Shown here one piece after another: positions 2,896-30,678 of a DNA stretch of 64,000 bases. How positions within the stretch are numbered: position 1 is the stretch's first letter; every line of letters begins with the position of its first letter. Below the pieces are notes generated by a model. That model saw only the letters and a list, made by a program, of their open reading frames with translations. It was not told the DNA's origin and did not search any database. Source of the stretch: Levilactobacillus fujinensis (GTDB taxonomy: Bacteria; Bacillota; Bacilli; Lactobacillales; Lactobacillaceae); the NCBI RefSeq assembly GCF_003946335.1, contig NZ_RHNX01000003.1, positions 62,001-126,000 on the forward strand, given 5' to 3'. The translations under genes and the position numbers were made by a program.

Positions 2896-2934
2896 GGGAT
2901 GAAAGTTCTAAGCTGTCGCGTATTAAGCAGCATT

Positions 2935-3195: not shown

Positions 3196-3265
3196 AACCT
3201 CTGTTGCTGAAGTATACGTCAACGGGTAGCTACCGCTTGACCCACTTTCAACGTCAGCTGACAGC

Positions 3266-4243
3266 TTATCCCGCAGGCACCGCCATCACGTCCGTATCGA
3301 CGATCCCAAATTGCCGCCGCATAGCAGCTTCGATCTCTTCACCTAACCGGTAACTGTCCTGCACCTCCATGTGGGGGTCGACCGCAATGATCACATCCAA
3401 CGTGACCACGTTTCCGTTGTAATGGGCCTTGAGTTCCAAGACCTGTTCGACTGCTGGGAACTCAGCAATGGCCGCACCAAACTGCTTTTCCACTGTGGGA
3501 TCAAAATAATCGGCCAGGTTCAAACTGCTCTCTCGGAAAATACGAATGCCAGATGTCAGAATGAAGATCCCCACCAACATACTGGCCACACCATCTAACC
3601 AGGTCACTTGAAAGGCAAGTGCACCACCAATGGCAATCATGGTTCCCAAACTTGTCACCGCATCACTTAAACTGTCCTGAGCCGCCGCCGTTAACGCCGC
3701 ATTTTGTAATCGCCGGCCACCGCGCTTGTTCAGCCACCAAACCCCCAGCATAATAACCGTTGCGATTGCCGCTCCCAGCAACGTTATCGGCTGTGGGACT
3801 TCTTGATCAGCCGGATTCATCAGGCTACGAATGCCACTATAGATAACGCTAGCGGCAATGGCAATCATTACGATTCCCGTAATCATGGTGAAGACTGTCT
3901 CGTAGTGAAAGCGGGTCAATTGCAGTCGCTGACCATTTTCCGTCGAATCCTCTGGCAGCGGTTGACCCATGAGATCATCGTCATGAATATCTCTGGCAAT
4001 GTAAATGCCGATCAATAGGAGCACCGACGAAATAATTCCTGATAAATTATTAAAGGCGTCGGCACGTAAGGTTTGTGAATGTCCAATAATAGCGAGATAA
4101 AATTCGATGATGGAAATTACCAAGTAGGCCCCGACATTTAAGTATAGGTGTCGTTGTGCTCCCTGCAACTTAGCTAATTCTCGCTGCTGGGTCGCCTGCC
4201 ACTCAGCCTGTTCTTCTCGCCGATGTTCTTTCAATTCTTTCAT
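3266..4243 (-). CDS. Cation diffusion facilitator (CDF) metal exporter
   Basis: This 325-aa membrane protein has the CDF layout: a charged N-terminal tail of about 30 residues, about six membrane spans, and a C-terminal cytoplasmic domain of about 80 residues. Such proteins export Zn, Mn, Fe or Co by proton antiport. The helix-5 site reads DSLSD (DxxxD). The helix-2 site reads ADAFNN, so the second ligand position is Asn instead of Asp/His, which may shift metal choice. It is a single gene. Confidence 0.85.
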   Translation of the reverse strand: MKELKEHRREEQAEWQATQQRELAKLQGAQRHLYLNVGAYLVISIIEFYLAIIGHSQTLRADAFNNLSGIISSVLLLIGIYIARDIHDDDLMGQPLPEDSTENGQRLQLTRFHYETVFTMITGIVMIAIAASVIYSGIRSLMNPADQEVPQPITLLGAAIATVIMLGVWWLNKRGGRRLQNAALTAAAQDSLSDAVTSLGTMIAIGGALAFQVTWLDGVASMLVGIFILTSGIRIFRESSLNLADYFDPTVEKQFGAAIAEFPAVEQVLELKAHYNGNVVTLDVIIAVDPHMEVQDSYRLGEEIEAAMRRQFGIVDTDVMAVPAG

Positions 4244-4485
4244 CTAGCTTCCCTCTAACGTCTATATTTTCTACTCCCTTCATTATACCCACTCCCAAGA
4301 AATTTTCTCGACCAAATTCGGCCATTTCATCACTAAGTCTCCCATCACTCGGAAGAATTTGTGTTAACTTTCATTAATCCAATTCACCCTTTGAAAACGG
4401 CAATGAAATTTTCTTTGTCACCCTTGAAATGCCGTCAAGTCGGTACTATTGCCTAGTTTTCTCACCCAACTAACAAACAATTAAT

Positions 4486-4523
4486 CGAAACCGGTTGCAA
4501 ACTGTAAATCTTTCGGTTATAAT
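4486..4523 (+). promoter_or_regulatory. cre-like box overlapping a sigma-A promoter of the iron-type ADH
   Basis: TTGCAA (4495-4500), a 17-base spacer and TATAAT (4518-4523) make a near-consensus promoter. CGAAACCGGTTGCA (4486-4499) matches the CcpA cre consensus TGNAANCGNWWNCA at 13 of 14 positions and covers the -35 box. That predicts carbon-catabolite repression. Confidence 0.72.
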
Positions 4524-4581
4524 TGCTTTGTGAAATTGATACCAATGATTTTCAAAACTTCTGAAAGAAGGCATTTGTATA

Positions 4582-5754
4582 ATGGCTGAACGTAGTTATG
4601 ACTTTCTGATGCCCAGTGTCAACTTTTTTGGCCCTGGTGTAATTAGCAAAATTGGTGAACGTGCAAAGATGTTAGGGATGAAAAAGCCCGTCATTGTCAC
4701 CGATAAGTTCCTTGAAGGACTCAAGGACGGTGCCGTTGAACAAACTCTGAAATCTTTAGACGCTTCCGGTGTCGATTACGTTGTTTACAACAACGTTGAA
4801 CCTAACCCTAAGATTCGCAATATTAAAGAAGTTAAAAAACTTTATGAAGAATCCGGCGCGGACTCCATCATTACTGTTGGTGGGGGCTCTGCTCATGATA
4901 CCGGTAAAGGTGCCGGCATTATCTTGACGAACGGTGACGATATCACCAAGTTAGCTGGGATTGAAACACTCGACAAGGCTTTGCCACCACTGATTGCCGT
5001 TAACACGACTGCTGGGACGGGGTCAGAATTGACTCGTCACGCCGTTATTACGAACGAAGAAACCCACTTGAAGTTCGTCGTTGTTTCATGGCGGAACATT
5101 CCGTTGGTTTCTTACAACGATCCTACTTTGATGTTGGACGTTCCTAAGGGCTTAACTGCCGCTACTGGGATGGATGCCTTCGTCCAATCCATCGAGCCTT
5201 ACGTTTCCGTTGACCATAACCCAATCACCGACTCACAATGTATCGAAGCCATCAAGTTGATTGAAACTTCCTTACGTGAAGCCGTTGCTAACGGCCACAA
5301 CCTTGACGCTCGGACCAAGATGGTCGAAGCCGAAATGTTAGCTGGGATGGCCTTCAACAACGCCAACTTAGGTTACGTTCACGCCATGGCTCACCAATTA
5401 GGTGGTCAATACGACGCCCCACATGGTGTTTGCTGTGCTTTGCTCTTGCCTTACGTTGAAGAATACAACATCATCGCTTGCCCGGAACGCTTTGCTGAAT
5501 TAGCAGAAATCATGGGCGAAAATACCGATGGCTTATCCACGCGTGACGCTGCCGAATTGTCCATTAAGGCCATGAAGCAGATGTCCGAAGACGTTGGTAT
5601 TCCGAAGTCAATCAAGGAAATCGGCGCTAAGCCAGAAGACTTTGAATTGATGGCTGAAAATGCTTTGAAGGATGGGAACGCCTTCTCTAACCCTCGTAAG
5701 GGGACTAAAGAAGATATCGTTAAGATCTTCCAAGCAGCCTACGACGCAAAGTAG
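4582..5754 (+). CDS. Iron-type (group III) alcohol dehydrogenase, 1,3-propanediol dehydrogenase-like
   Basis: This 390-aa protein is close to the DhaT/methanol-dehydrogenase branch of Fe-dependent NAD(P) alcohol dehydrogenases, which in lactobacilli reduce aldehydes such as 3-hydroxypropionaldehyde. The N-terminal half has the cofactor-binding GGGSAHD (residues 100-106). The C-terminal metal site has Asp198, His267 and His281, with His271 in HAMAHQLGG. The usual second ligand His, four residues after Asp198, is Gln202 (MDAFVQS). Codon use is strongly biased, as in highly expressed genes. It is a single gene behind a cre-covered promoter. Confidence 0.9.
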   Translation: MAERSYDFLMPSVNFFGPGVISKIGERAKMLGMKKPVIVTDKFLEGLKDGAVEQTLKSLDASGVDYVVYNNVEPNPKIRNIKEVKKLYEESGADSIITVGGGSAHDTGKGAGIILTNGDDITKLAGIETLDKALPPLIAVNTTAGTGSELTRHAVITNEETHLKFVVVSWRNIPLVSYNDPTLMLDVPKGLTAATGMDAFVQSIEPYVSVDHNPITDSQCIEAIKLIETSLREAVANGHNLDARTKMVEAEMLAGMAFNNANLGYVHAMAHQLGGQYDAPHGVCCALLLPYVEEYNIIACPERFAELAEIMGENTDGLSTRDAAELSIKAMKQMSEDVGIPKSIKEIGAKPEDFELMAENALKDGNAFSNPRKGTKEDIVKIFQAAYDAK

Positions 5755-5774
5755 AGTGCGTAGCAAGGCGCTTA

Positions 5775-5824
5775 GGGCCTGAGCATTCATGTGCTACCTT
5801 TGTCGCACATTTACACCCAGGCCC
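5775..5824 (+). other. Nested hairpin downstream of the Fe-ADH gene
   Basis: GGGCCTG (5775-5781) pairs with CAGGCCC (5818-5824). Inside it ATGTGC pairs with GCACAT. No clear T-run follows, so it is a possible 3' stabilising stem or weak terminator. Confidence 0.4.
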
Positions 5825-5845
5825 TCCCCTTGCAAAGCACGTTTC

Positions 5846-5879
5846 ACCAGTCGAATCGACCCTCATCGATTCGACTGGT
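5846..5879. repeat. Perfect 14-bp inverted repeat
   Basis: ACCAGTCGAATCGA (5846-5859) and TCGATTCGACTGGT (5866-5879) are exact reverse complements with a 6-base loop. There is no T-tract, so this is not a standard terminator. The role is unknown. Confidence 0.6.
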
Positions 5880-6007
5880 CATGACTAACCTCATGCGAAC
5901 GCTACGGTCATCCGGTTACCCCCTCTTGGCCGTTAGCTAAATTAAACTATGAACACGAGCAATCGCAGTTGACTGCACAGCTACCCGATTGGTCGTGTTT
6001 AAAAGAA

Positions 6008-6044
6008 GGGACCGGCTCTACTAATCTGTGGAGCTGGTCTCTTT
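6008..6044 (+). terminator. Terminator-like hairpin
   Basis: GGGACCGGCTC (6008) pairs with GAGCTGGTCTC (6031), followed by TTT. It probably ends read-through from the Fe-ADH transcript. Confidence 0.5.
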
Positions 6045-6058
6045 GTATATGTATATAT

Positions 6059-6245
6059 CGAAGGTTGAAAGTCCCGAAACACACATTATGACCGTTGTCA
6101 CAACGATACTGGGTCTAAAATTAGGCAACGTTGTCCAACCATCGCCTTACCGGCCGGCAGATATGGGCTGGAACGGTGCGAACACGCGCCTGAGCCCATA
6201 TCTGCCGACCTCTCGGCTGACGTAGTTGGTCTGAGGCAACATGGC
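6059..6245 (+). repeat. Intergenic repeat R2, full copy
   Basis: It begins near AAGGTTGAAAGT and passes through GGCTAAAATTAGGC-like sequence. It ends in a 15-bp inverted repeat, CGGCAGATATGGGCT (6155-6169) with its complement (6193-6207) around a 23-base loop. Near-identical sequence is at 49497; reverse or partial copies are at 13600, 18537 and 30737. It is non-coding. Confidence 0.75.
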
Positions 6246-6397
6246 TCATGCCGTTTGAAGCGCTATTGAATTATGCTTAAACTTTAGCGACCACTTGGGA
6301 TTCAGTGATTAGAATTGACGAGCACAATCAAAGCCGGAGGCGGCCAGGGATGTAGCTAGCCGTGTCGACGATATTAGTCGGCGTCTTTTCCGACTTA

Positions 6398-6595
6398 CAT
6401 CGTGGGACGACCTGGGAGATGCCTGATCTTGGCGGCTCTCAGGCGAGCTGGAAGCCCGTCCTTTGGCTGGAAGCGTTCCCCCCACAGCAAGCGGAATCCC
6501 TGGCGGCCGGAGTGCAGTTGTTTTCACTAATTTAGCCGTGATAATTCCTACTGCTGCAAGCGTAACGCAAACATTTTGGCTTTCAACCTTCAGTA
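6398..6595 (+). repeat. Intergenic repeat R3, full copy
   Basis: It shares long stretches with 37868-38045: a GAGATGCCTGATCTTGGCGG start, CAGGCGAGCTGGAAG, CCCCACAGCAAGCGGAATCC, GGCCGGAGTGCAG and a CTACTGCTGCAAG tail. Partial copies are at 2966 and 9838; reverse ones are at 18360 and 22840. No open frame is conserved between copies, so it is a non-coding dispersed element. Confidence 0.7.
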
Positions 6596-6652
6596 TATAT
6601 CACAATTTTTCCGTAGAAATCACCCACAACGAATAAAGAAAGGCCCTTACTT

Positions 6653-7306
6653 ATGCAAAAATACTTAACCTTTGACTGCTACGGCACCCTCTTACAAGAG
6701 GCCGGCACCTATGATACCATCGCTCAATTAGCCCGAAAAATCGGTGTTGATCCGCAGCTGGCACGCGACCGCTTCGTGACGTATCAAGACGACCGCAATA
6801 ATATGCATCCCTACATTGACTACGACTTACTGACCCGTAACAACCTCATTCACTTAGACTATCAGTTTGGTCTCAAGCACCAATTTGAAAGCTATTACGT
6901 GGATGTGTTAACCGCCCATCGAAATCTCAAACCCTTCCCAGAAGTCATTCGGACATTACAGGCCTTACAACAGCGAGACTATCACTTGATCATGATGTCC
7001 AACTCTTCATGGGACATCATTCCGGCCAACGCTGCGGCTCTCCAAGTTCCCTTTGATATCTGGACAGCCGAAGACGTTCACGCTTACAAACCCGACCTGC
7101 ACTTCTTCAACACGGTCGCCGACCACTACGGTTTCACGACCGACAATCACTGGCACATTGCCCAAGGCTACGCCAGTGACATCGTCCCCGCTGACCAACT
7201 TGGCTGGAAATCCATCTGGATCAATCGCGACAATGCGGCACCAACCACGGCGGCAGTTCCCACCTATGCCGCGGCTACGCTGGATAAAATTTTAGCATGG
7301 CTATAA
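6653..7306 (+). CDS. HAD-superfamily hydrolase, haloacid-dehalogenase type
   Basis: A 217-aa cytosolic protein with HAD motif I as FDCYGT (residues 7-12; first Asp at 8), motif II SNSS near residue 120, a YKPD motif III region and GYASDIVPA as motif IV. In the canonical motif I (DxDxT) the second Asp acts as acid/base. Here it is Tyr, as in 2-haloacid dehalogenase-type members, so phosphatase activity is less certain. The nearest ribosome site is GAAAGAAAGG upstream. It stands alone between repeats and an MFS gene. Confidence 0.75.
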   Translation: MQKYLTFDCYGTLLQEAGTYDTIAQLARKIGVDPQLARDRFVTYQDDRNNMHPYIDYDLLTRNNLIHLDYQFGLKHQFESYYVDVLTAHRNLKPFPEVIRTLQALQQRDYHLIMMSNSSWDIIPANAAALQVPFDIWTAEDVHAYKPDLHFFNTVADHYGFTTDNHWHIAQGYASDIVPADQLGWKSIWINRDNAAPTTAAVPTYAAATLDKILAWL

Positions 7307-7377
7307 CTTTTACCTAAAGACTGCCGCGCCAACAGTCACAATAATTATTTTGGATCTTTCAGTCTTTAAATTTAGCT

Positions 7378-7407
7378 TTGAAAAACGCTTCGATTGTGGG
7401 GTATACT
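7378..7407 (+). promoter_or_regulatory. Promoter of the DHA2-type MFS gene
   Basis: TTGAAA (7378-7383), an 18-base spacer and TATACT (7402-7407). The implied leader is about 130 bases and holds GCGGG and CCCGC arms that could pair close to the ribosome site. Confidence 0.55.
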
Positions 7408-7541
7408 AGATGCAATTGAACGCGGGCAAAGCGACCAACCATTAAATTAATAATACTTGTATATCTCTTAACGACACCTTCGCTAACGGGAAAAGTATGA
7501 TGTTAATCGTACTTGACCCGCGAACGGAGGTTTTTTATTTC

Positions 7542-8936
7542 ATGACAGAAACACCAAATGCTTCAGCAACTCGTTTTTCAGTTTTTGGTTCCGCCGGTCT
7601 CGCTTTTTGTGGCGTACTGGTTGAAACCTCAATGAATGTCACTTTTCCCACCCTAATGACGCAGTTTCACACGTCGCTCAACGCCGTCCAGTGGGTCACT
7701 ACGGCCTATTTACTAGCGGTCGCCGCGACCATGGTCATTACGGCATTTATTCAAAGTCGCTTTCGCCTCAAAGCCATTATTAGCGTTGGTGGAACGGCCT
7801 TTGTTGTGGGCGGTATGCTCTGTGCACTCGCCCCTTCGCTCCCGATTCTACTACTTGGCCGGGTAATTCAAGCTGTGGGGACGGGGTTCGCCATGCCACT
7901 CGTTTTTGCGCTGATCATGCATCAAGTGCCCTTTGCCCAACAAGGTCGCTATACCGGGACTGCCGGCATGCTAATTGCCTTGGCACCTTCCCTCGGTCCA
8001 ACCTATGGTGGCTTAATGACGCAACTCCTTAGCTGGCGCCTCATTTTCTGGCTCACCCTGCCAATTGGTCTTATTTCTTGGCTGGTCGCCGTGACTCACC
8101 TGCAGCAGACCTGGGATACCGAACACCGGTCATTTCCTTGGGGGCAGTTCATCCTAATCGTAGCGGCCCTTGGTCTGACCACCTTAGCCTTTAATAACGC
8201 CGGAAACGATGGCTTTGGGGCACCCGGATTCTACGGGCTCTTCCTTTTGGCCTGTGTGGCATTGGCTGGGTTCATCTGGCTTGCCAACCGAGGTGAACAG
8301 CCCCTCTTACAACTCAAGATTTTCCGCCACACCACCTTTAGCAAGGTCCTCTTCCTTTACTTCTTAATTCAATTTACACAAATTGGTCTGACCTTTCTCC
8401 TACCAAACTTCACACAACTCGTCTTGGGCAAAAACGCCATGGTATCAGGGTTAATGTTGCTTGCTGGGAGTCTAACATCGGCCATCTTGTCGCCAGTCGC
8501 CGGACGCCTGATGGACCATCGGGGCGTCACCTTACCCTTACGTCTTGGGGCCAGTTGTCTTCTGTTAACCGCCATTTTGTTTATGCTCGTCGCCAACCGG
8601 TTATCGGTTCCCCTGATTATTGGCCTGTTCGTCTTATTTCAGTTCGGCTTCAGCTTCATGTTTAACAATCTCTTGACCTTTGGGCTACAACAACTCCCCC
8701 GGCCACAGATTGGGGACGGAAATGCGGCCTTCAACACCCTTCAACAGTACTCGGGCTCCTTGGGAACGGCCATCATGGCAGCCTCCCTCGCCCTGGGCGC
8801 CAAGTTCCAGCCGGCAGCTAATGCCATTAATCAGACCCGCTTTGGGACCGTTCTAGCTCTCAGCCTAACGCTTGCCGTCATGATTGTTGTATTCATAGTG
8901 ACCTTCACGATTCGGCAACCGGCTAAGGCAAAGTAA
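7542..8936 (+). CDS. MFS exporter, DHA2 (EmrB/QacA) family
   Basis: This protein of about 464 aa has roughly 14 hydrophobic segments and an NAVQWVTTAYLL motif in the first helix region. LLGRVIQAVGTG and GPTYGG motifs follow, as is typical of 14-helix drug:proton antiporters. It should export small toxic compounds through the membrane. An upstream in-frame ATG (7497) lacks a ribosome site, whereas GGAGG at 7526-7530 lies 11 bases before ATG 7542, so I start there. It is a single gene closed by a strong terminator. No regulator is adjacent. Confidence 0.85.
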   Translation: MTETPNASATRFSVFGSAGLAFCGVLVETSMNVTFPTLMTQFHTSLNAVQWVTTAYLLAVAATMVITAFIQSRFRLKAIISVGGTAFVVGGMLCALAPSLPILLLGRVIQAVGTGFAMPLVFALIMHQVPFAQQGRYTGTAGMLIALAPSLGPTYGGLMTQLLSWRLIFWLTLPIGLISWLVAVTHLQQTWDTEHRSFPWGQFILIVAALGLTTLAFNNAGNDGFGAPGFYGLFLLACVALAGFIWLANRGEQPLLQLKIFRHTTFSKVLFLYFLIQFTQIGLTFLLPNFTQLVLGKNAMVSGLMLLAGSLTSAILSPVAGRLMDHRGVTLPLRLGASCLLLTAILFMLVANRLSVPLIIGLFVLFQFGFSFMFNNLLTFGLQQLPRPQIGDGNAAFNTLQQYSGSLGTAIMAASLALGAKFQPAANAINQTRFGTVLALSLTLAVMIVVFIVTFTIRQPAKAK

Positions 8937-20392: not shown

Positions 20393-20406
20393 GTTAAGCG
20401 ATTAAC
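20393..20406. promoter_or_regulatory. LacI-type operator 1 (GTTAAGCGATTAAC)
   Basis: A 14-bp near-palindrome just after the predicted transcription start, placed to block transcription. It is the exact reverse complement of the site at 20488 and matches others at 27659 and 29249. Confidence 0.75.
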
Positions 20407-20487: not shown

Positions 20488-20501
20488 GTTAATCGCTTAA
20501 C
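20488..20501. promoter_or_regulatory. LacI-type operator 2 (GTTAATCGCTTAAC)
   Basis: It lies 95 bases centre-to-centre from operator 1, or about nine helix turns, in the leader just before the ribosome site. The spacing would allow a repression loop. Confidence 0.75.
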
Positions 20502-20525
20502 TACAGTCGAAAAGGAGTGAACGCA

Positions 20526-20975
20526 TTGCTATTCGTAAATTTAGATTCATTTGACGCTCAGGACTACGAACGGATTCAAGAAGCCGTATCCTTCCTCAAA
20601 AGCACTGATTTAACGGCAACTCCCCTAGGTCGGAGCCATCAAGATGGTGAACGCTTCTACGTCCAAACGTTAGAATACGATACTGAACCGATCGAAGACT
20701 TCGAGTTTGAAATCCATAACAAGCGTCTGGACCTCCACTACATCGTGGAAGGCGAAGAACGTATCGACGTTGCCCCCGACACGAACTACGTTGGCATCAG
20801 CGATTACAACGATGAACGCGACATTCAATACGTCCAGCGGCCAACGGCTTTCAATCAGATTCACCTGCACAAGGGAGATTTCGTTTTGATTGGTATGCAC
20901 GAACCACACCGGACTAACGGTCTCATCGACCAACCGACTCACGTTAGAAAAATCGTTTTGAAATTAGGTAAATAA
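20526..20975 (+). CDS. YhcH/YjgK/YiaL (DUF386) family sugar-acid anomerase-like protein
   Basis: A 149-aa cupin-like protein of the family of E. coli YhcH (NanQ, reported to be an anomerase opening cyclic sialic acid) and YiaL. Family marks seen are the HNKRLDLHYIVEGEERIDV block (residues about 63-81) and the metal-site-like MHEPHRT with a late VRKIVLKL strand. AAAGGAG at 20511-20517 is 8 bases before a TTG at 20526; a GTG at 20517 overlaps that site. It is the first gene of yhcH-MFS-yhcH, behind two LacI-type operators and a cre. Confidence 0.82.
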   Translation: MLFVNLDSFDAQDYERIQEAVSFLKSTDLTATPLGRSHQDGERFYVQTLEYDTEPIEDFEFEIHNKRLDLHYIVEGEERIDVAPDTNYVGISDYNDERDIQYVQRPTAFNQIHLHKGDFVLIGMHEPHRTNGLIDQPTHVRKIVLKLGK

Positions 20976-20987
20976 GGAGCTTTCATC

Positions 20988-22235
20988 ATGGATAATGCTG
21001 CGACACATGGAAAATGGACCGGTCGCCAGATTATGGTCCTCGCCGGCATCTGGCTGGCGTTCTTAATTAGTTTCATCACTCGGCTGTCATGGGCAACCAT
21101 CATGCCTTCAGCCATCGATTCCTTACATTTCACCGTGCAACAAGGGAACTCATACTTAACTGCCTTCTACATTGGGTACGCCATCACGGTGCTGCCTGGT
21201 GGGATGCTCGCCGACAAGTTCGGTTACAAGAAGTTATTGCTTGCCGCCGTTACCGGTAACTTGATCGTCATGATTGCCATGGTCTTCATGCACGGTTACT
21301 GGGATGGGTTAGCCCTACGGTTCATCTTAGGGCTGGTCAGTGGTCCTGACTTATCTGCTTGTTTAGGGATTATCACCGAATGGTTCGATGGTAAGAAACG
21401 GGCGACTGCTACTGGGATCTTCAACACGTGTACCTCATTTGGGTTGACTGTGATCAACCTGTACGCCCCAACTGTCATGGTTCGTTACGGCTGGCGTGCT
21501 GCCTTAGGGGTAACCGCATTCTTCCCACTGGCTGCTTTGATTTTCTCTTACTTCGCTCTCAAGGGTAATCCGCCGTTTCCACAACAGTTTGGTATTAAGG
21601 AAGCTAACGGGAAGGTTGAACAAGAATCATCTATGGCCCGTTTACGCAAAGCCATCAACAACCGTTCCGTTTGGATGTTAGCCATTACCGGTTTATTCGC
21701 TACCGGTGCTAAATGGGGCGTTACCAACTGGGCCAACCTCTTCATCGTTAAGAGTTTGAAGTTCAGTCTGGTCACCGCCGGAACCGCCATGTCCATCTTC
21801 GGGATCACATCCGTTATCTCCATGATCGTTGCGGGTTGGATCTCCGACCATTCTAAATTATCTCGTCACATCTGGGCCGCTATCTTCATGGCCATCTTCA
21901 CGCCAACCATCGTTGGATTCGCGTTGACCCCACAAGGTAACCTCGCCATGCTTTACTTCTGGACAGGTGCCATGGGGGTTGGGGCCTTCATGTTCAGTAC
22001 CATCACCAACAACTTGTCCGTTGAAGTCGCACCAGCCGACCAACGGGGGACCGTTTCCGGATTCATCAACGTCTTTAACCAAGTTGGGTCCTTCTTGGCC
22101 CCCGTCCTACTGGGCCAGTTGTTAGCTTCAACCGGTAGCTATGTCACCTCATACCTAACTATCGCTGCCTTCCCGATTATCGCTGTGGTCGCCTTACTCT
22201 TTGTACGTGAGTCCGACGCAGATAAAAATAACTAA
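20988..22235 (+). CDS. MFS importer, anion:cation symporter-like (sugar-acid type)
   Basis: A 415-aa, 12-helix MFS protein with the layout of sugar-acid symporters (ExuT/GudP-like): SFITRLSWATIMPS near helix 1, GGMLADKFGYKK (motif A, about residues 62-73), EWFDGKKRATATGIF after helix 4. It sits 12 bases after one YhcH-like gene and 23 before another, with highly biased codon use. I infer import of a keto-sugar or sugar acid feeding the kinase/epimerase operon at 23292-27625, which has the same operator type. Confidence 0.82.
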   Translation: MDNAATHGKWTGRQIMVLAGIWLAFLISFITRLSWATIMPSAIDSLHFTVQQGNSYLTAFYIGYAITVLPGGMLADKFGYKKLLLAAVTGNLIVMIAMVFMHGYWDGLALRFILGLVSGPDLSACLGIITEWFDGKKRATATGIFNTCTSFGLTVINLYAPTVMVRYGWRAALGVTAFFPLAALIFSYFALKGNPPFPQQFGIKEANGKVEQESSMARLRKAINNRSVWMLAITGLFATGAKWGVTNWANLFIVKSLKFSLVTAGTAMSIFGITSVISMIVAGWISDHSKLSRHIWAAIFMAIFTPTIVGFALTPQGNLAMLYFWTGAMGVGAFMFSTITNNLSVEVAPADQRGTVSGFINVFNQVGSFLAPVLLGQLLASTGSYVTSYLTIAAFPIIAVVALLFVRESDADKNN

Positions 22236-22258
22236 CTATACTAAAGGAGAAATCACTC

Positions 22259-22726
22259 ATGGAATTTGGACTAAGCAAGAGTCACCAACGTAACGAAAAG
22301 ATCGAAAAACGGATTCAGACCGCTTTGGACTGGTTAGACGCCCGTTCAACTGAAGAATTATTAGCAGAACCCATTGGCAACAAGGTTATCGCTGACGGCG
22401 TTGAACTTCGTTTCCAAGAATACGACACCCGCGACTACGCTGAAATGACTTACGAAACCCACCGCGACCACATCGACATTCATTACATGATCACCGGTGC
22501 TGAATGGGTTCGTTGGGCCGACGAAGGCACTGCCGAAGCCGTTAGTCCTTACGATCCAGAGGAAGAAATCCAACGCTTTGGTCACCCTGCTTTCCATAGC
22601 AAGGCTCTCCTGACTGACCGTCACTACGCCATCTTCGACCCATCCGACTTACATGCCGCTCATGGGATGGTTGATGGCAAGGTTGGTCACAACCACAAGC
22701 TTTGCGTTAAGATCGCCATCAACTAG
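22259..22726 (+). CDS. Second YhcH/YiaL (DUF386) family protein
   Basis: A 155-aa paralogue of the product of 20526-20975, clearly diverged from it. It keeps the HRDHIDIHYMITGAEWVRW block (about residues 75-93) and a FDPSDLHAAHG metal-site-like segment in place of MHEPHRT. Two family members around one transporter suggest that two ring forms or two related acids are handled. It is the last gene of the operon and is followed by a terminator. Confidence 0.82.
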   Translation: MEFGLSKSHQRNEKIEKRIQTALDWLDARSTEELLAEPIGNKVIADGVELRFQEYDTRDYAEMTYETHRDHIDIHYMITGAEWVRWADEGTAEAVSPYDPEEEIQRFGHPAFHSKALLTDRHYAIFDPSDLHAAHGMVDGKVGHNHKLCVKIAIN

Positions 22727-23291: not shown

Positions 23292-24023
23292 TTATTCGCG
23301 AGCCGCATGGTCCTTTGACTTCGCGTTGTTCTGGCCATAGTAGGCGTTGGCGCCATGCTTGCGGAGGTAATGCTTGTCCAGCAAGTACTGTGGTAATTCA
23401 CGGTTGGCCCGGGTCAATTGTGCCGTGTGGTAGTCTTCTTCAGCGACGACTTCTAGCACCTTGGCGTTGTATACGGCCTTGTCAGGTGTTGGGCCCCAAG
23501 CAAAGGGACCGTGTTGGCTGACCAAGGCTGCAGGAACGGCCTCGTAGTCGATACCGCGTTCGTTAAACGTCTTCACGATAGTCTTCCCCGTGTTGCCTTC
23601 GTAATCTTCTTCGATTTCCTCTTTGGTCAAAGCATCTGCGGCAGGCACATCCCCATAGAAAGTGTCGGCGTGCGTAGTGTTCATAGCTGGAATATCCATT
23701 TTAGCTGCGGCGAATGACACGGCCCAAGGTGAGTGCGTGTGCACGATACCGCCGATGTTTGGAAAATGGTTGTACAGGTACGTGTGGGTTGGCGTGTCGC
23801 TTGACGGGTTCATGTCCCCTTCAACGACCTTGCCATCCTTTAGGCTCACAACGACCATGTCTTCTGGCTTCAAGTCGTTGTAATCGACACCAGAAGGTTT
23901 GATGACGTAAAGACCTTTTTCACGGTCAACACCGGAGACGTTGCCCCAAGTGAATGCGACTAGACCGAGTTGTGGTAAACGCATGTTGGCGTCATAGACT
24001 TCTTGTTTGAGTTGTTCAAGCAT
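23292..24023 (-). CDS. araD: L-ribulose-5-phosphate 4-epimerase (AraD/UlaF/SgbE family)
   Basis: A 243-aa class II aldolase-fold enzyme converting L-ribulose 5-phosphate to D-xylulose 5-phosphate, which enters the phosphoketolase pathway. The E. coli AraD residues fall at the same numbers: SSD at 74-76, zinc ligands His95 and His97 in VHTHS, and His in VSQHGPF. The start is the ATG with AAGGAG 10 bases upstream; a longer in-frame start has no ribosome site. It follows the 3-epimerase gene after 177 bases and may also have its own promoter. There is no araA/araB neighbour, so L-arabinose is not the obvious substrate. Confidence 0.9.
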   Translation of the reverse strand: MLEQLKQEVYDANMRLPQLGLVAFTWGNVSGVDREKGLYVIKPSGVDYNDLKPEDMVVVSLKDGKVVEGDMNPSSDTPTHTYLYNHFPNIGGIVHTHSPWAVSFAAAKMDIPAMNTTHADTFYGDVPAADALTKEEIEEDYEGNTGKTIVKTFNERGIDYEAVPAALVSQHGPFAWGPTPDKAVYNAKVLEVVAEEDYHTAQLTRANRELPQYLLDKHYLRKHGANAYYGQNNAKSKDHAARE

Positions 24024-24200
24024 AGTTTGTTCGCTCCTTATTTTCTGTGTATTGCCGGCGGTCGCTAGGACCTGCGGCGATAATCGTATTTTAATCAAAC
24101 TGTGGTTCGATATGAAGTTATTTAATCATTTTTAACTATGGCTAAATTTCCGTGAGTATGATTGACAGCATGTCTGCCACCCACTCAAACTACTGCGAAA

Positions 24201-25079
24201 CTAGTCAGCGATGGCTTCTTGTTCAATCCCGACTTTGGCGAAGAGGTCGTCGAAGAACTGTTTCGCCTTCTTGATCTCACCAACGGGGTCGGCCGTCGTG
24301 CCCGTCCACATTTCAACGGTGTAGCTCCCAGAATAGTCCAGGCGAGCCAACATTCGCAAACAGCCCTCGAAGTCCACGCAGCCTTCGCCAAATGGCACTT
24401 CTTTGAACTTACCCTTGAACGTTGGGGTCACGGCTAACGTATCCTTCAAATGGATAGCCGCAACGTCTTCCAAGTTATTCTCCAGGTCTTCTGCGACGTT
24501 GTTTTCTGGCCAAGCGCTGATGTTTCCCAGGTCAGGGTAGCCCTGTAAGAAGGGACTCTTGATCATAGTCTTGTAGTGCGCGATCTTCGTCAGAGAGTTG
24601 ATAAATGGGTCATCCATGGTTTCAATGGACAACGTCACCAGCTTCTTGGCGGCCATGGCAACACACTTACGCAAATTTTCCACAAAGTATTCGCGGCTTT
24701 CGACCGTCTTCTTTTCGTAGTAAACGTCGTAACCGGCCAACTGGATATTCTTGATGCCCAGGTCAACGGCAAGGTCGATGGCCTTTTGCATGATGTCCAG
24801 TGACTTGGCGCGGATTGCGGGGTCAGCGGAACCAAGGGGAAACCGCCGATGACCGGACAACATCATGGTGTTGATGCGACTCTTGGTTTCCCACATAGCA
24901 TTTCTGAAGTCGGCACGTTGCTCACGCGTCCAGTCCAAGCGGGCTAACCGTTCGTCACTTTCATCGATAGAGAATTCCAAAAAGTTAAAGCCTAATTCAT
25001 GAACTAAGTTAAACTTCTCTTTCCAAGTTAGATCTTGGGGTAATGCTTTTTCGTAAATGCCTAATGCGTTAACTGTCAC
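24201..25079 (-). CDS. ulaE: L-ribulose-5-phosphate 3-epimerase (UlaE/SgbU-like)
   Basis: A 292-aa xylose-isomerase-like TIM-barrel protein of the UlaE/SgbU type, converting L-xylulose 5-phosphate to L-ribulose 5-phosphate. Recognisable parts are GIYEKALP near the N-terminus, FLEFSIDESDERL, LSGHRRFPLGS, the metal-site IETMDDPF, HLKDT, and a late EMWTG. The start is a GTG overlapping the kinase stop (GTGA), with AAGGAG upstream. Kinase, this enzyme and the AraD-like enzyme form consecutive steps from L-xylulose to D-xylulose 5-phosphate. Confidence 0.9.
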   Translation of the reverse strand: MTVNALGIYEKALPQDLTWKEKFNLVHELGFNFLEFSIDESDERLARLDWTREQRADFRNAMWETKSRINTMMLSGHRRFPLGSADPAIRAKSLDIMQKAIDLAVDLGIKNIQLAGYDVYYEKKTVESREYFVENLRKCVAMAAKKLVTLSIETMDDPFINSLTKIAHYKTMIKSPFLQGYPDLGNISAWPENNVAEDLENNLEDVAAIHLKDTLAVTPTFKGKFKEVPFGEGCVDFEGCLRMLARLDYSGSYTVEMWTGTTADPVGEIKKAKQFFDDLFAKVGIEQEAIAD

Positions 25080-26608
25080 TGTTCTGCTCCTTCTTGAAAT
25101 GCCTTGAGATTGCTCCAACTACCGTCTAACGCCGTCAATAAGGACACGTAAGCGGCATACTTTTTATCATAAATTTTAACTTGGTCAGTGCGTGGTTCGA
25201 AGCGTGCCTTAACGTGGGACATCTTCCCCGCAGCTTCTTCTAGACTCGCATACTGACCACTGCCAACAGCCGAGGTGATCGCCCCACCCAAGCCACCGAG
25301 TTCGTTGGATTCGACCAACTCGATCGGCAGGTTCAGGATATCCGCAAACATTTGGACCCAGCTAGGGGAATTCGTGCCCCCACCGGACATCCGGACGACT
25401 TGTGGCGCATGACCCAGTACTTTCAACAGTGACTGCACGTGATAACGGTGGGCAAAGGCAATCCCCTCGTAGACCGCGCGGACCATTTCGGACTTCGTGG
25501 TGTTACTACGCAGACCGATAAAGGACCCGGTTGCTTCGGGATCGGTATTACTCCCATAAAGGAACGGGAAGTAGATCAATTTGGCAAAATTCGCGTCCGT
25601 GTTCTGGAGAAACACTTCAAGGTCGTCATAGATCGACTTGCCCTGAGCCTCAGCGTCTCGGGTCTCGGCGGTCATTAACATCTTGATAATGATGGCCAGA
25701 TTGCCGGCGGAGGTAGGACTCGATGCTTCGATCAGCTTCTTACCGGTCGGGAAAATCGAGTTCATCAAACCACTGTCTTCTGGCGCCATCGTCTCGTTGG
25801 GGAAGATGTTCATGTTCCACGTTCCGGCAATCAGACTGAATTTATCGTTGTCCAACACGCCGGTCGCAATGGCACAGGCATCAATGTCGAACATCCCGCC
25901 AAAGACGGGGGTACCGGCCTTGATGCCAGTCATCTTTTCCGCTGCCGGTGAGACGACCCCGCACTGATCCGTGGCGTGCACGAGTTGGGGCATCTTAGCA
26001 AACATTTCTGGAATACCAAAGAAGTCGAAGAGCCGTTGGTCGTAGGTCTCGGTGTCTAAATTGACAAAGTTATTACCGGACGCGTCGCCAATTTCTTGGT
26101 AAACGTCGCCCGTGATCAGAAACCGGATGAAGTCCTTGTTGGACAACACCGCGCCAATCTTGGCATAGTTTTCTGGTTCGTGCTCCTTAAGCCACCGTAA
26201 GATAACCGGCGCTTGGCTCGACATCACGTGTTGGTGACTGATGGCAAAAATATCGCTAACGCTACTTTCAAAGGTCGTCGCGAGTTTTTCGGCACGGCTG
26301 TCGGCCGATAAGATGCCATCCATGAAGATCTGCTGGTCGTGGTCGAGGACGTAAAGCCCCTTCCCGTGGCCGACCGTCGAAATTCCGCTAATTTGGTCAC
26401 CCGTTAAGTGGGCCTTGGTCAACGCGTCGTGCGCCGCCGCTCCCAGTGCCGTCCACAGCTCGTCGAGGTTCGTTTCGTGGAATCCCGCCTTGCGTTCACG
26501 GTTTTTCGTGGGAAATGCGGAGACCGCGAGTTGGTCCCCTTGGTCGTTAAAGATGGCCACTTTGGTATTGGTGCCGCCGTTATCGATCGTTAAAAAGTAG
26601 CTTGCCAT
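25076..26608 (-). CDS. FGGY-family carbohydrate kinase, L-xylulose kinase (LyxK)-like
   Basis: A 510-aa sugar kinase with the N-terminal phosphate motif IDNGGTNTK (residues about 7-15), a central GGMFDIDACAIATG substrate/catalytic segment, and the C-terminal adenosine motif RMSGGGTNSPSW. It most resembles L-xylulose/3-keto-L-gulonate kinases of yia-type operons, consistent with the following UlaE-like gene. The start is ATG 26608 (AAGGAG 11 bases upstream; the GTG at 26620 overlaps it). It lies 15 bases after the propeller gene and overlaps the epimerase by 4. Confidence 0.85.
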   Translation of the reverse strand: MASYFLTIDNGGTNTKVAIFNDQGDQLAVSAFPTKNRERKAGFHETNLDELWTALGAAAHDALTKAHLTGDQISGISTVGHGKGLYVLDHDQQIFMDGILSADSRAEKLATTFESSVSDIFAISHQHVMSSQAPVILRWLKEHEPENYAKIGAVLSNKDFIRFLITGDVYQEIGDASGNNFVNLDTETYDQRLFDFFGIPEMFAKMPQLVHATDQCGVVSPAAEKMTGIKAGTPVFGGMFDIDACAIATGVLDNDKFSLIAGTWNMNIFPNETMAPEDSGLMNSIFPTGKKLIEASSPTSAGNLAIIIKMLMTAETRDAEAQGKSIYDDLEVFLQNTDANFAKLIYFPFLYGSNTDPEATGSFIGLRSNTTKSEMVRAVYEGIAFAHRYHVQSLLKVLGHAPQVVRMSGGGTNSPSWVQMFADILNLPIELVESNELGGLGGAITSAVGSGQYASLEEAAGKMSHVKARFEPRTDQVKIYDKKYAAYVSLLTALDGSWSNLKAFQEGAEQ

Positions 26609-26623
26609 ATTCAGCCACACTCC

Positions 26624-27625
26624 TTATAAACTAATTGCGTAGACTGCGACCTGGTTAGCTTCACGGTTAGCAGACAACAGGTAGGTTTGACCATCCTTGT
26701 TGTAGACCGTGACGTTACTTGGTCCCATTTTTTCATCGATCAATTGGGCGTCTAACTTGTCGCTCGTGATCAATTCAAGGTTTTGCTTACCAGCACGCCA
26801 GCCGAAGATGAAGTAATCGCGATCGCCTAACTTACCACCCCAGATAGCGTGACCAAATGGCGTATCCGCTTCACTACGGGAAATCGTGTTGAAGTTATGG
26901 TCCGAAACCCGGAGATAAGGACCGTGGAACCCTTCGATGGTCAGGTATTCTTGTTCGCCGTCCTGGTTGATGTCGGCACTGAAGATGTCGGACGTTTCAA
27001 CGTCGGATAATTGCGTTAACTGCCAATCTTTTTCGGCGGTTGGTGGCACGAGCTCGAAGATTCCTTGCACACCGGTGATCAATGAATAGCCGTCCATGCG
27101 CTTGTAGCCGTGGTTCTTGGTCAAACGGAAATCAAGGGCGTGTAAGTCATCGACCGTTTCGTTAGCATCGTTGTAGTCGCCGACCCAGATCTTACCAGGA
27201 TCAGTCCAGTCATCAACGTCCTTCTTGGAGTTGGCAATGGAGCAACCCACGTACCAGTAGCCAGAACCGTCATACTTAGGGAGGATATCAAACCGGTGAA
27301 CGTAAGGGAAATCGCCCACGATGGTTTGGTCCCAGTCGGTCCCGTTAAAGGTTTCCTTAACGATCCGGCAGGCAGCAGAGTTAAAACCAGGGTAGAATCG
27401 TTGCGTGGCTAAAAAGTTCAACGTACCAGGAATTTGGACCATGGTCATAGTTCCCCCAACGTCGGGCCAAACGGTCGTCCGGGCAAAATTATCGTTCAAA
27501 TCATAGGCGTAGCAAGGCTTCTTTTCTTCGGAAGCCACAACGATATAGTCTTTATCGTCGTGTTGTAACCGCATGATTGCATAACAGTGATCTAAGTCAT
27601 CTTTAAAAATCTTATCGAATTTCAC
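26624..27625 (-). CDS. Unrecognised cytoplasmic beta-propeller-like protein in the sugar operon
   Basis: I do not recognise this 333-aa protein. It has no signal peptide. It is built of repeated short beta strands ending in aromatic/Gly turns (DYIVVASEEKK, YWYVGCSI, YSLITGVQGIFEL, YFIFGWRAGK, TYLLSANREANQVAVY), as expected for a propeller. One FG-GAP-like calcium loop, DINQDGEQE, lies at residues 218-226. His110, His172, His234 and His259 could form a central metal site. It is the first gene of the operon before the kinase, with GTG start and GGAGG 7 bases upstream. A role as lactonase, lyase, decarboxylase or isomerase is only a guess from context. Confidence 0.6.
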   Translation of the reverse strand: MKFDKIFKDDLDHCYAIMRLQHDDKDYIVVASEEKKPCYAYDLNDNFARTTVWPDVGGTMTMVQIPGTLNFLATQRFYPGFNSAACRIVKETFNGTDWDQTIVGDFPYVHRFDILPKYDGSGYWYVGCSIANSKKDVDDWTDPGKIWVGDYNDANETVDDLHALDFRLTKNHGYKRMDGYSLITGVQGIFELVPPTAEKDWQLTQLSDVETSDIFSADINQDGEQEYLTIEGFHGPYLRVSDHNFNTISRSEADTPFGHAIWGGKLGDRDYFIFGWRAGKQNLELITSDKLDAQLIDEKMGPSNVTVYNKDGQTYLLSANREANQVAVYAISL

Positions 27626-27658: not shown

Positions 27659-27715
27659 GTTAACCGGTTAACAATAGTCGAGTATTATCTTACGGTTTCT
27701 GATTTTAAATGTCAA
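27659..27715 (-). promoter_or_regulatory. Promoter and perfect LacI-type operator of the kinase/epimerase operon
   Basis: On the minus strand TTGACA (27715-27710), 17 bases and TAAGAT (27692-27687). The fully symmetric operator GTTAACCGGTTAAC (27659-27672) follows just after the expected start site, the same arrangement as at 20393. Confidence 0.8.
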
Positions 27716-28061: not shown

Positions 28062-29018
28062 CTAAGCGTTTACGTGGTTAAGTGCTTTACCATCGTTAAT
28101 AAATGAAATTAAGTTCTTGGAAGCTTCTTGCGCAATGGCAATCCGTGCTTCTAAAGTCCCAGTCCCAGCATGTGGGGACATGATGACGTTGTCTAAGGCC
28201 CGTAGGTCGGCAGAAACGTTGGGTTCGTTTTCGAAAACGTCTAAACCAGCACCGGCAATTTCGCCGTTCTTTAAGGCATCAACTAAGTCAGCTTCCTTAA
28301 CCAAGACACCACGAGCAGCGTTGATCAAGTAAGCGGTGTTCTTCATCTTGCCGAAGACATCAGCGTTGAAGATACCAACCGTAGATGGTAAGGCTGGGGC
28401 GTGTAGCGTGATAACGTCGGCCGTCTTAACTAACGTGTCGAAGTCAACGTACTTCACATCCAGCTTCTTTTCCAAGTCGCTATCGAGTTGACGAACGTCG
28501 TTGTAGATAACGTTCATGCCCAAAGCTTGGCAGAACCGACCAACTTCGGAACCGATACGACCCATGCCGTAGATTCCTAAGGTCTTTCCTTGCAGGCTCA
28601 TACCCATGTACTTCTTTTCGGAAACGTCCATCCAGTTACCTTCACGAACAACCTTGTCGTAGAAGAATAAGCGACGAACCGTTGCCAAGAGTAAAGCAAA
28701 GGTCATTTCAGCAGTTGGTACACGGACGCCCATTGGGCAGTTAGAAACGACGATGCCCTTTTCTTTAGCATAGGCGATGTCCACGTGGTCAAACCCAACA
28801 CCGTTAGTCGTAATGATCTTCAGGTTCTTACCGGCATCGATCAATTCGCGGTCGGCCTTCGTTCCCATTAACAGCAAGCCATCAAAGTTGGCTAAGTTGT
28901 TTAAGATCCATTCGCGGGATTCCTTTTCGGGGTCGTAAGTGACGTCAAAGGCTGCGCGTAAATCAGTCAAACCTTCTTCGGGGATGATTCCGGTAACTAA
29001 AACTTTTGCTTTACTCAT
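28062..29018 (-). CDS. D-isomer-specific 2-hydroxyacid dehydrogenase
   Basis: A 318-aa NAD(P)-dependent enzyme of the GhrA/GhrB/PGDH superfamily, which reduces 2-keto acids to 2-hydroxy acids. The Rossmann motif GMGRIGSEVG lies near residues 152-161. The catalytic Arg (AARGVLV), Glu (ENEP) and His (SPHAG) are all present. It is a single gene with an imperfect copy of the LacI-type operator over its -10, next to the lacI gene. In this regulon it could reduce a 2-keto sugar acid, for example 2,3-diketo-L-gulonate, a job done by YiaK in E. coli; that is inference. Confidence 0.87.
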   Translation of the reverse strand: MSKAKVLVTGIIPEEGLTDLRAAFDVTYDPEKESREWILNNLANFDGLLLMGTKADRELIDAGKNLKIITTNGVGFDHVDIAYAKEKGIVVSNCPMGVRVPTAEMTFALLLATVRRLFFYDKVVREGNWMDVSEKKYMGMSLQGKTLGIYGMGRIGSEVGRFCQALGMNVIYNDVRQLDSDLEKKLDVKYVDFDTLVKTADVITLHAPALPSTVGIFNADVFGKMKNTAYLINAARGVLVKEADLVDALKNGEIAGAGLDVFENEPNVSADLRALDNVIMSPHAGTGTLEARIAIAQEASKNLISFINDGKALNHVNA

Positions 29019-29140: not shown

Positions 29141-29262
29141 TTGACCTACCGCCAGCCCACTAACTATAGCATTGCTGGAAGCAAGCGGTTTCAACCTTTT
29201 GTAAAAAAATATGGCTACCGTGATGAATTAGTGGTAATCTTAGACGTGGTTAAGCGCTTAAC
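29141..29262 (+). promoter_or_regulatory. Possible promoter of lacI with a perfect downstream operator
   Basis: TTGACC (29141-29146), 18 bases and TATAGC (29165-29170) could be a promoter towards the LacI gene. The fully symmetric GTTAAGCGCTTAAC lies at 29249-29262. This would give autoregulation through a leader of about 490 bases; the promoter itself is uncertain. Confidence 0.5.
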
Positions 29263-29667: not shown

Positions 29668-30678
29668 TTGGAAAAATTCACCATTAAAGACATTGCGAAG
29701 CTTGGAGAGGTCTCCACAGCAACTGTCTCAAACTTTTTGAACGGCAACTACGCAAAGATGTCCGCCACAACTCGTGAAAGACTGGCGAATATCATCAGTA
29801 AAACGGATTATCATCCCAGTACGACCGCCCGTAATCTGGCTAAAAATGAAAATAAAACGATTGGTATTTCGGTCGCTGACATTACAAACCCATTCACCTC
29901 ACCAGTTATCTCCGGACTATCCGAACGCTGCGAAAAGTACGGCTACAAGATGGTCTTTACCAACTCGAATAATGACGAGCGCCGGGAGGTTGAAAACATC
30001 AACCGCCTGCGCGAGGAAGAAGTCGCCGGCCTGATCATTGACCCGGTCAATCCCGACAGTAGTATTTACAACCAATTGTCCAATGCTTACACGGTCATCG
30101 TTGACCGGCAAGCACGCCGCAACGTGGTTGATACTATCGTGACCGACAACATGAATTCCGTCGACACCATGGTCAAGAAGATGGTCGCCAAGGGGTACGA
30201 TGACCTCTACTTCGTGAGTTGGCCACTCGACGGCGTGAGCACCCGGCTGAACCGCTACGCCGGATTTAAGCTCGCCACGAATTATTTGAACGACGACCAC
30301 CTGATCACGGTGCCTTATAATACGTCGCTCAACAAGAGTAGTGACTTCGACCAGACCTTAGAGAACATTCTAGCCAACAAGGGTGACAAAAAAATCGGCT
30401 TCTTCACCATGAACTCCCGGACGCTACTGCAACTGCTAAAGTCGGCCCAACGGCTAAACTACAACTATGCTGAGGACTTTGGCGTGGCGACCTACGAAGA
30501 GTTCGAATGGATGCAGTTGATGAATCCTGGCATCAGTTGTGTGCGGCAAGACTCCTTTGCCATCGGCTGTGCTGCCATGGATCTCTTAAAGGAAAAACTG
30601 GAGACCCAGTATGATAACGAACCCGAACCTCAGGTCAAATTGATTCCGACCGATTTGATTGTGCGGGACAGCTTCTAA
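29668..30678 (+). CDS. LacI-family transcriptional regulator of the local sugar regulon
   Basis: A 336-aa LacI/GalR protein. The N-terminal HTH has TIKDIAKLGEVSTATVSNFL (residues 4-23) and the hinge-helix region HPSTTARNLAKN, followed by a periplasmic-binding-like effector domain (IGISVADITNPF to LIVRDSF). TTG start, with GTGGAGG 7 bases upstream. Similar LacI-type regulators (KdgR in Bacillus) control sugar-acid catabolism. The palindromes GTTAANCGNTTAAC around it are the best candidate binding sites. Confidence 0.88.
   Translation: MEKFTIKDIAKLGEVSTATVSNFLNGNYAKMSATTRERLANIISKTDYHPSTTARNLAKNENKTIGISVADITNPFTSPVISGLSERCEKYGYKMVFTNSNNDERREVENINRLREEEVAGLIIDPVNPDSSIYNQLSNAYTVIVDRQARRNVVDTIVTDNMNSVDTMVKKMVAKGYDDLYFVSWPLDGVSTRLNRYAGFKLATNYLNDDHLITVPYNTSLNKSSDFDQTLENILANKGDKKIGFFTMNSRTLLQLLKSAQRLNYNYAEDFGVATYEEFEWMQLMNPGISCVRQDSFAIGCAAMDLLKEKLETQYDNEPEPQVKLIPTDLIVRDSF

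Follow-up and report, generated by a model that had tools for sequence, protein, structure and literature searches.

A predicted beta-propeller protein family as candidate 3-keto-L-gulonate 6-phosphate decarboxylase in bacterial L-ascorbate and diketogulonate operons

The Escherichia coli operon yiaKLMNO-lyxK-sgbHUE is among the closest described counterparts of the locus reported here. YiaK is a diketogulonate reductase and YiaL a DUF386 protein. According to the accessible part of its description, the operon also encodes LyxK, a kinase for L-xylulose and 3-keto-L-gulonate, together with SgbH, SgbU and SgbE (PMC6958661). The window, i.e. the whole stretch of 64,000 nucleotides from Levilactobacillus fujinensis that was analysed, likewise contains a kinase, equivalents of SgbU and SgbE, a transporter and proteins of the YiaL family, but it uses an MFS transporter rather than the YiaMNO importer, a 2-hydroxyacid dehydrogenase rather than YiaK, and a predicted beta-propeller protein (hereafter the propeller) rather than SgbH. 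The propeller occupies the same pathway position as UlaD and SgbH, between UlaG or a kinase and UlaE, and is proposed to catalyse the same reaction; however, UlaD is a PF00215 protein of about 220 residues, whereas the window protein is an unrelated propeller in which a Pfam search found no PF00215 (OMPDC-type TIM barrel) domain.

Two further enzymes are relevant for comparison. The human 3-dehydro-L-gulonate decarboxylase C11orf54 (DUF1907) binds Zn on three His residues (PMC12435205), and the chemistry we propose for the propeller would be the same, on the same beta-keto acid, but C11orf54 has an alpha-beta-beta-alpha fold related to acetolactate decarboxylase and acts on the unphosphorylated substrate (PMC12435205). 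For the fold, the nearest counterpart seems to be aldos-2-ulose dehydratase (AUDH), with a chain of 879-881 residues as opposed to 333 amino acids in one domain for the window protein. In AUDH the propeller is followed by cupin and lectin domains, both of which are lacking in the window protein. The PDB titles of 4a7y and 4a7z present AUDH as a metal enzyme acting on a keto sugar, with structures in which the active-site metal is depleted or the intermediate ascopyrone M is bound, and the accessible part of a further source describes it as a seven-bladed propeller of the VCBS type (PMC8023676).

In the window, the propeller gene lies on the minus strand (26624..27625) and starts with GTG. Upstream of it are the genes of a D-2-hydroxyacid dehydrogenase (28062..29018, minus strand; Pfam 2-Hacid_dh and 2-Hacid_dh_C), proposed as 2,3-diketo-L-gulonate reductase in the role of YiaK, and of a LacI-family regulator (29668..30678, plus strand; Pfam LacI). 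Downstream, the open reading frame of an FGGY carbohydrate kinase (25076..26620, minus strand; Pfam FGGY_N and FGGY_C) begins 3 bp past the propeller stop on the same strand; it reaches no NCBIfam equivalog cut-off and is proposed to act as 3-keto-L-gulonate (or L-xylulose) kinase in the role of LyxK. It is followed by an L-xylulose-5-P / L-ribulose-5-P 3-epimerase of the UlaE/SgbU type (24201..25118, minus strand; PRK13210 and TIGR00542 above cut-off) and an L-ribulose-5-P 4-epimerase of the AraD/UlaF/SgbE type (23292..24098, minus strand; PRK08193 above cut-off). Beyond these, two unlike genes of the YhcH/YjgK/YiaL family (DUF386, by Pfam; 20517..20975 and 22259..22726, both plus strand) flank a single MFS transporter gene (20988..22235, plus strand; Pfam MFS_1), proposed to take up the sugar acid, and this YhcH-MFS-YhcH arrangement (20517-22726) is kept in most Levilactobacillus, Paucilactobacillus and Furfurilactobacillus loci.

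Four LacI-type operators, none of them assigned to a strand, were found in this region. One, TTAACCGGTTAA (27660..27671), lies between the propeller start and a sigma-70-like promoter (TTGACA, 17 nt, TAAGAT; 27687..27715, minus strand), which is a consensus match only in a region with 11 such sites against a mean of 6.8 in shuffles. Another, TTAAGCGCTTAA (29250..29261), is placed between the dehydrogenase and LacI genes, while TTAAGCGATTAA (20394..20405) and TTAATCGCTTAA (20489..20500) precede the YhcH-MFS-YhcH genes. The pattern TTAANCGNTTAA occurs four times in the window against 0.09 expected, an expectation that flatters because the pattern was picked after the operator matches were already known. 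In an independent check on 27 Lactobacillaceae loci (472 kb), it gave 89 sites against 3 for the control pattern TTAANGCNTTAA, and 21 of the 27 loci have a site at most 450 bases before the propeller. Other sites in the relatives precede the dehydrogenase, a YhcH gene or a TIM-barrel gene and, in L057, ulaG. The whole genome of the window holds 14 sites, four of them within 8.9 kb here, but a control with the pattern reversed yielded 12, so no meaning attaches to an isolated site far away; the six of the other ten that were read (L218, L219, L225, L229, L230 and L231) all fall within or next to genes with no apparent connection. The common operator in the window and its relatives indicates that the reductase, transporter, YhcH proteins, kinase, propeller and epimerases form one regulon. 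From its adjacency we infer that the LacI protein, whose gene cluster recurs in 41 loci including the window, regulates it. The original prediction made the propeller the first gene of one transcript with the kinase and epimerase genes; the same-strand order was indeed seen, while the head of the transcript is deduced from the operator and the promoter-like site, and the window's transcript probably starts with the propeller gene.

The propeller protein had been described as fitting no familiar enzyme family, which agrees with our searches: no Pfam or NCBIfam family was matched at cut-off. Below threshold, the window protein gave FG-GAP_3 (15.6 bits, cut-off 26.9) and Beta-prop_CGLA (13.1 bits, cut-off 26.8) in Pfam, and one NCBIfam match far under its cut-off that we read as chance. 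Among 72 homologues, FG-GAP_3 was matched at E <= 1 by 51 (best E 0.0003) and FG-GAP by 29 (best E 8.2e-6), while a single weak NCBIfam match in one of the 72 was again taken as chance. No FG-GAP repeat of the window protein exceeds the Pfam cut-off and only one such motif is present, namely the predicted loop DINQDGEQE (26948..26974, minus strand; residues 218-226). The sequence search of solved structures returned short, weak matches only and no relative of the propeller; moreover, no PHROGs family was matched by three members of the family, and the plasmid records searched gave no match. Homology to a known non-catalytic family was looked for and not found. From its N-terminal sequence alone, the protein is judged to be cytoplasmic.

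The propeller is a member of a real protein family, present in 27 of 397 Lactobacillaceae genomes and in 8 of 398 Bacillota genomes (the window's own included; one of the eight is a partial match). In genome contigs, 334 matching stretches were confirmed, and the best 80 of these, kept as loci L037-L116, span lactobacilli, bifidobacteria, streptococci, Leptotrichia, Clostridia and relatives, Betaproteobacteria and one spirochaete MAG, with L. koreensis (97%) and L. andaensis (96%) as the nearest named homologues. Three sequence sets were drawn from these searches. Set A1 consists of 24 of the 27 Lactobacillaceae loci, without L003, L012 and the broken L025 and with L001 under the name P0001, and set A3 comprises the window and 71 of the best 80 loci, without the close copies L037, L038, L039, L041, L049, L051, L054 and L073 and the broken L061. 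A3 was combined with 29 loci from a class sample (L163-L191), a part of them from genomes that also supplied named loci or are nearly identical to ones that did, into 101 pooled homologues; grouping these at 99.5%, 95% and 70% identity gives 100, 88 and 27 groups, respectively. The broken sequences L025 and L061 are from Lentilactobacillus kisonensis, where the propeller gene has two in-frame stops, hence the pathway there may be decaying.

The gene neighbourhoods of the family, which the original prediction had singled out for a search, contain genes of L-ascorbate and pentulose metabolism. Among the best 80 of the 334 loci, 79 have at least one of UlaE, UlaF, FGGY, UlaG and UlaA, 63 have UlaE or UlaF, and 42 have a gene like the window's 2-hydroxyacid dehydrogenase, while UlaD is inside 11, all of Lactobacillales. 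These counts are lower bounds, since open reading frames were chosen greedily by length and genes could be lost to longer overlapping frames; the propeller label itself was lost in three of the 80 (L099, L106 and L110) and also in L214. The UlaG, UlaE, UlaF and UlaD identities follow NCBIfam cut-offs on representatives of two loci. Gene clustering of the same 80 loci gave three layouts. The one of Lactobacillales, Bifidobacterium and Leptotrichia mostly combines the 2-hydroxyacid dehydrogenase with the propeller and the FGGY kinase. In many of its loci UlaE and UlaF are present as well, and YhcH-MFS-YhcH, a set of EIIC, amidohydrolase and TIM barrel, or both complete the layout. The layout of Clostridia mostly consists of ulaG, ulaABC, propeller, ulaE and ulaF, with FGGY in some, and that of Betaproteobacteria of propeller, ulaG and FGGY, with ulaE and ulaF in some.

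Some variants of these layouts deserve mention. In L066 (12093-16919) an EIIC-GAT permease, with no IIA or IIB recognised beside it, stands with an Amidohydro_2 protein and a TIM barrel that is uncharacterised; such a set often occurs with the propeller, with equivalents in L043, L045, L047-L049 and L052-L054, where it replaces or joins YhcH-MFS-YhcH, and it is perhaps a second uptake and entry route. In Betaproteobacteria, including L089, L090, L094 and L096, UlaG adjoins the propeller and an FGGY kinase with no PTS recognised nearby, and there the kinase perhaps phosphorylates L-ascorbate itself. A 9.7 kb faecal scaffold deposited as 'Bacteriophage sp.' (L036, MT836566.1) carries, all in the same orientation, genes for UlaE, UlaG, FGGY, UlaA, a homologue of the propeller and UlaF (1631-8450), with no UlaD match; it is probably a mislabelled contig with an operon of bacterial type.

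The proposed reaction is suggested by the Clostridia. Their minimal operons have the order ulaG-ulaC-ulaA-ulaB-propeller-ulaF-ulaE (L084, L208 and L215; the genomes G923 and G978 read so), and genome G1147 has ulaG-ulaC-ulaA-ulaB-ulaD-ulaE, i.e. ulaD at the place of the propeller. Following the pathway order of E. coli as given in the accessible part of its source (PMC3219644), G923 and G978 possess known genes for all steps from ascorbate 6-phosphate to D-xylulose 5-phosphate except the decarboxylation, and the propeller is the only gene of the minimal operons without an assigned step. UlaG was found at E <= 1e-90 in 50 of 380 genomes of one class (the best UlaG matches of G978, the genome of L215, and of G995 have one in-frame stop each). 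The propeller is present in 43 of these 50, none of which has UlaD at 48% identity or more, and three others have UlaD at 48-50% identity, all without the propeller. Three of the 43 show only a UlaD match of 26-31%, the range expected of hexulose-phosphate synthases, with which the UlaD query itself scores; the same query detected the UlaD of Bifidobacterium at 42-43% and was thus sensitive enough. The four remaining genomes have neither gene, and their UlaG identities (53-58%) are the lowest of the 50. In one of them UlaG is accompanied by distant UlaA and UlaC; in the three others it is close to a contig end, and the stretch read shows no ula gene recognised around it. All four may represent other pathways or be incomplete. 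At the genus level, 16 of the 19 genera have the propeller, three others UlaD, and none both.

The Bacillota sample shows a similar pattern: seven of 398 genomes have UlaG at 62-71% identity, five with the propeller and no UlaD match and two with UlaD (50 and 70%) and no propeller. UlaG-like matches at 32-41% in five other Bacillota genomes were set aside as other paralogues, and none of the five has the propeller or UlaD. Fisher tests gave p = 0.0018 for the class sample and 3.6e-5 when it was pooled with the Bacillota sample (two genomes common to both entered once), values that are rough because the genomes are related. In a further search, UlaD was looked for in 50 of the best 80 loci (49 genomes), the remaining 30 all being from Lactobacillaceae or streptococci. 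Among the 36 propeller genomes outside Lactobacillales, Bifidobacterium and Leptotrichia, a set that overlaps the class sample and was kept out of the pooled test, 31 have no UlaD and four only matches of 26-31%. The exception is a Merdimonas MAG (G831, L105) that has the propeller and whose contig C106 begins with a strong UlaD (63%); three other Merdimonas MAGs have no UlaD, so contamination is possible in G831. As an alternative decarboxylase, DUF1907 (PF08925) was found in none of 51 genomes, nor in the control genomes, so this result carries little weight. In those sampled Clostridia that have UlaG, the propeller and a strong UlaD are mutually exclusive.

The window's own clade differs in this respect. 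The window genome has no UlaD (best match 28%) and no UlaG at E <= 1e-40, but 10 of the 13 Lactobacillales, Bifidobacterium and Leptotrichia genomes searched have UlaD at 42% or more alongside the propeller, so the exclusion does not hold in this group. E. coli likewise keeps two sets, ula with UlaD (PMC3219644) and yia with SgbH (PMC6958661), according to the accessible parts of both sources. In the tree, a long, fully supported branch (100/100, 0.58) parts the window's clade from the PTS-linked clade that shows the exclusion; the clostridial reductase-linked members L087 and L093 fall on the PTS side. Between the 35 reductase-linked and 17 PTS-linked members, only four type-specific columns were found at the 90% level, two of which are gaps and none an invariant residue. 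For the window's clade, the case for a decarboxylase is made by analogy, and the long branch and the frequent coexistence with UlaD are its weakest points.

The structure prediction suggested in the original prediction strongly points to a propeller: an AlphaFold2 model from 72 sequences has this fold with pLDDT 95.0 and pTM 0.92. AUDH had been named as a possible relative, and its structure 4a7k is the best solved match of the model by VIA-align (4a7k/4a7y/4a7z; Z 33.7, rmsd 2.5 A over 322 residues, 12% identity), ahead of LGI1 as the second family (Z 28.6), although Foldseek puts LGI1 first and AUDH eleventh. Other candidates named at the outset, PL22, PL11 and SMP-30-type lactonase, are not among the 50 matches listed from each of VIA-align and Foldseek, nor among the 25 Pfam families listed, an absence that does not count against them. 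AUDH differs from the propeller in being a dehydrating enzyme, and the PF22301 cut-off is not reached: at E <= 1 the family is matched by three of the 72 homologues (lowest E 0.005) and not by the window protein, and a search of eight genomes gave no match, nor did any control.

The residues H110, R111, D139, N171, H172, S212, D213, D218, E226, H234, H259, R277 and N304 are invariant in all 101 homologues; they include the ends of the FG-GAP-like loop and the 'several spaced His' of the earlier reading, which turn out to be H110, H172, H234 and H259. D222 and G223 are kept in 99 of the 101, N320 changes once, and K170 is lysine in 96. In the model, the presumed inner strands of the seven blades begin at residues 14, 62, 109, 173, 211, 258 and 302, and within two positions of each start lies an invariant residue (Y15, M60, H110, H172, S212/D213, H259 and N304), so each blade seems to aim a fixed residue at the channel mouth. 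The four invariant His residues sit near strand starts or blade loops of the model, and metal binding by the invariant residues is a candidate function.

On these grounds we propose, with a probability of about 0.7, that the propeller with its AUDH fold decarboxylates 3-keto-L-gulonate 6-phosphate to L-xylulose 5-phosphate and is a non-orthologous replacement of UlaD/SgbH. Both reaction and mechanism are candidates drawn from context and fold. In the window, the MFS protein would take up 2,3-diketo-L-gulonate, the 2-hydroxyacid dehydrogenase would reduce it to 3-keto-L-gulonate, the FGGY kinase would phosphorylate this, the propeller would carry out the decarboxylation, and UlaE and UlaF would yield D-xylulose 5-phosphate. 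Near the mouth of the central channel, the invariant H110, H172 and H259 together with H234 may bind a divalent metal, which would polarise the keto group at C3 of the beta-keto acid; C1 would be lost as CO2 to leave a metal-bound enediolate, and a His or acid residue would protonate the enediolate to L-xylulose 5-phosphate. R111 and R277, both invariant, and K170 could hold the phosphate and the carboxylate. In AUDH, as Claesson et al. reportedly described in 2012, the zinc polarises the keto group and a His acts as acid-base; a metal placed as in AUDH would aid decarboxylation of a beta-keto acid by stabilising the enediolate.

Other readings differ in the substrate or in the step. Members of the window's clade could have the same chemistry but convert free 3-keto-L-gulonate to L-xylulose ahead of the FGGY kinase, as human C11orf54 does. 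The window operon with its kinase and no PTS, the retention of UlaD by most searched relatives and the long branch between the two clades would fit this, and decarboxylation of free 3-dehydro-L-gulonate is known in humans (PMC12435205). The clostridial members, however, sit behind the ascorbate PTS and UlaG, and thus their substrate is phosphorylated; the same invariant residues occur in the reductase-linked and PTS-linked types, and E. coli LyxK acts on 3-keto-L-gulonate ahead of SgbH (PMC6958661, accessible part). We therefore regard decarboxylation of the free acid in the window's clade as unlikely, and decarboxylation of the phosphorylated acid as the preferred reading for the family.

The original prediction of an enzyme for a missing first step has stood in part: the propeller fold and a catalytic-looking conserved site were found, but the first step is wrong or unproven, as it is for the decarboxylation, after the kinase (or lactonase) and before the 3-epimerase, that no other candidate is present. 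A lactonase, dehydratase or isomerase of the propeller type acting upstream on a sugar acid would agree with the AUDH fold, with the propeller's probable position at the head of its transcript and with the amidohydrolase and EIIC transporter that adjoin some relatives. We consider it quite unlikely, because operons that contain both UlaG and the ascorbate PTS are already equipped for the first steps and lack the decarboxylase alone, and because exclusion of UlaD is not expected of such an enzyme; the occupied ulaD slot and the absence of a strong ulaD alongside it in the class sample indicate that the step is the decarboxylation. It is very improbable that the propeller is a non-catalytic or auxiliary protein (scaffold, sensor or mutarotase), with the beta-keto acid decarboxylating spontaneously or by an unrecognised enzyme elsewhere. 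Propellers often serve as scaffolds, and beta-keto acids are labile, which counts for a spontaneous reaction, but conserved site residues are not wanting (the His/Arg/Asp/Asn set is invariant in 101 of 101), one gene replaces UlaD in the same operon slot, and the minimal operons read leave no spare gene.

Judged from sequences and the model, the propeller probably represents an enzyme family that is new and unrelated to those already described for this reaction. It also seems likely, if somewhat less firmly so, that the L-ascorbate/diketogulonate pathways of most sampled Clostridia with UlaG, of lactobacilli, streptococci and bifidobacteria, and of some Betaproteobacteria are carried by a third, structurally unrelated family of 3-keto-L-gulonate (6-phosphate) decarboxylases whose scaffold is a metal-binding propeller. 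Among the matches listed from open-licence papers, none links the propeller to this decarboxylation, and the enzyme would have been overlooked because ula operons were assumed to contain ulaD. If our proposal is true, a function would be given to a widespread family that was found in neither Pfam nor NCBIfam, decarboxylation would join the reactions known for propeller enzymes, and one reaction would be performed by three unrelated folds, the human enzyme having been identified only in 2025 (PMC12435205). It would also fill a pathway hole in the use of vitamin C by gut anaerobes, with the propeller doing in many gut and food bacteria what a quite different enzyme does in E. coli.
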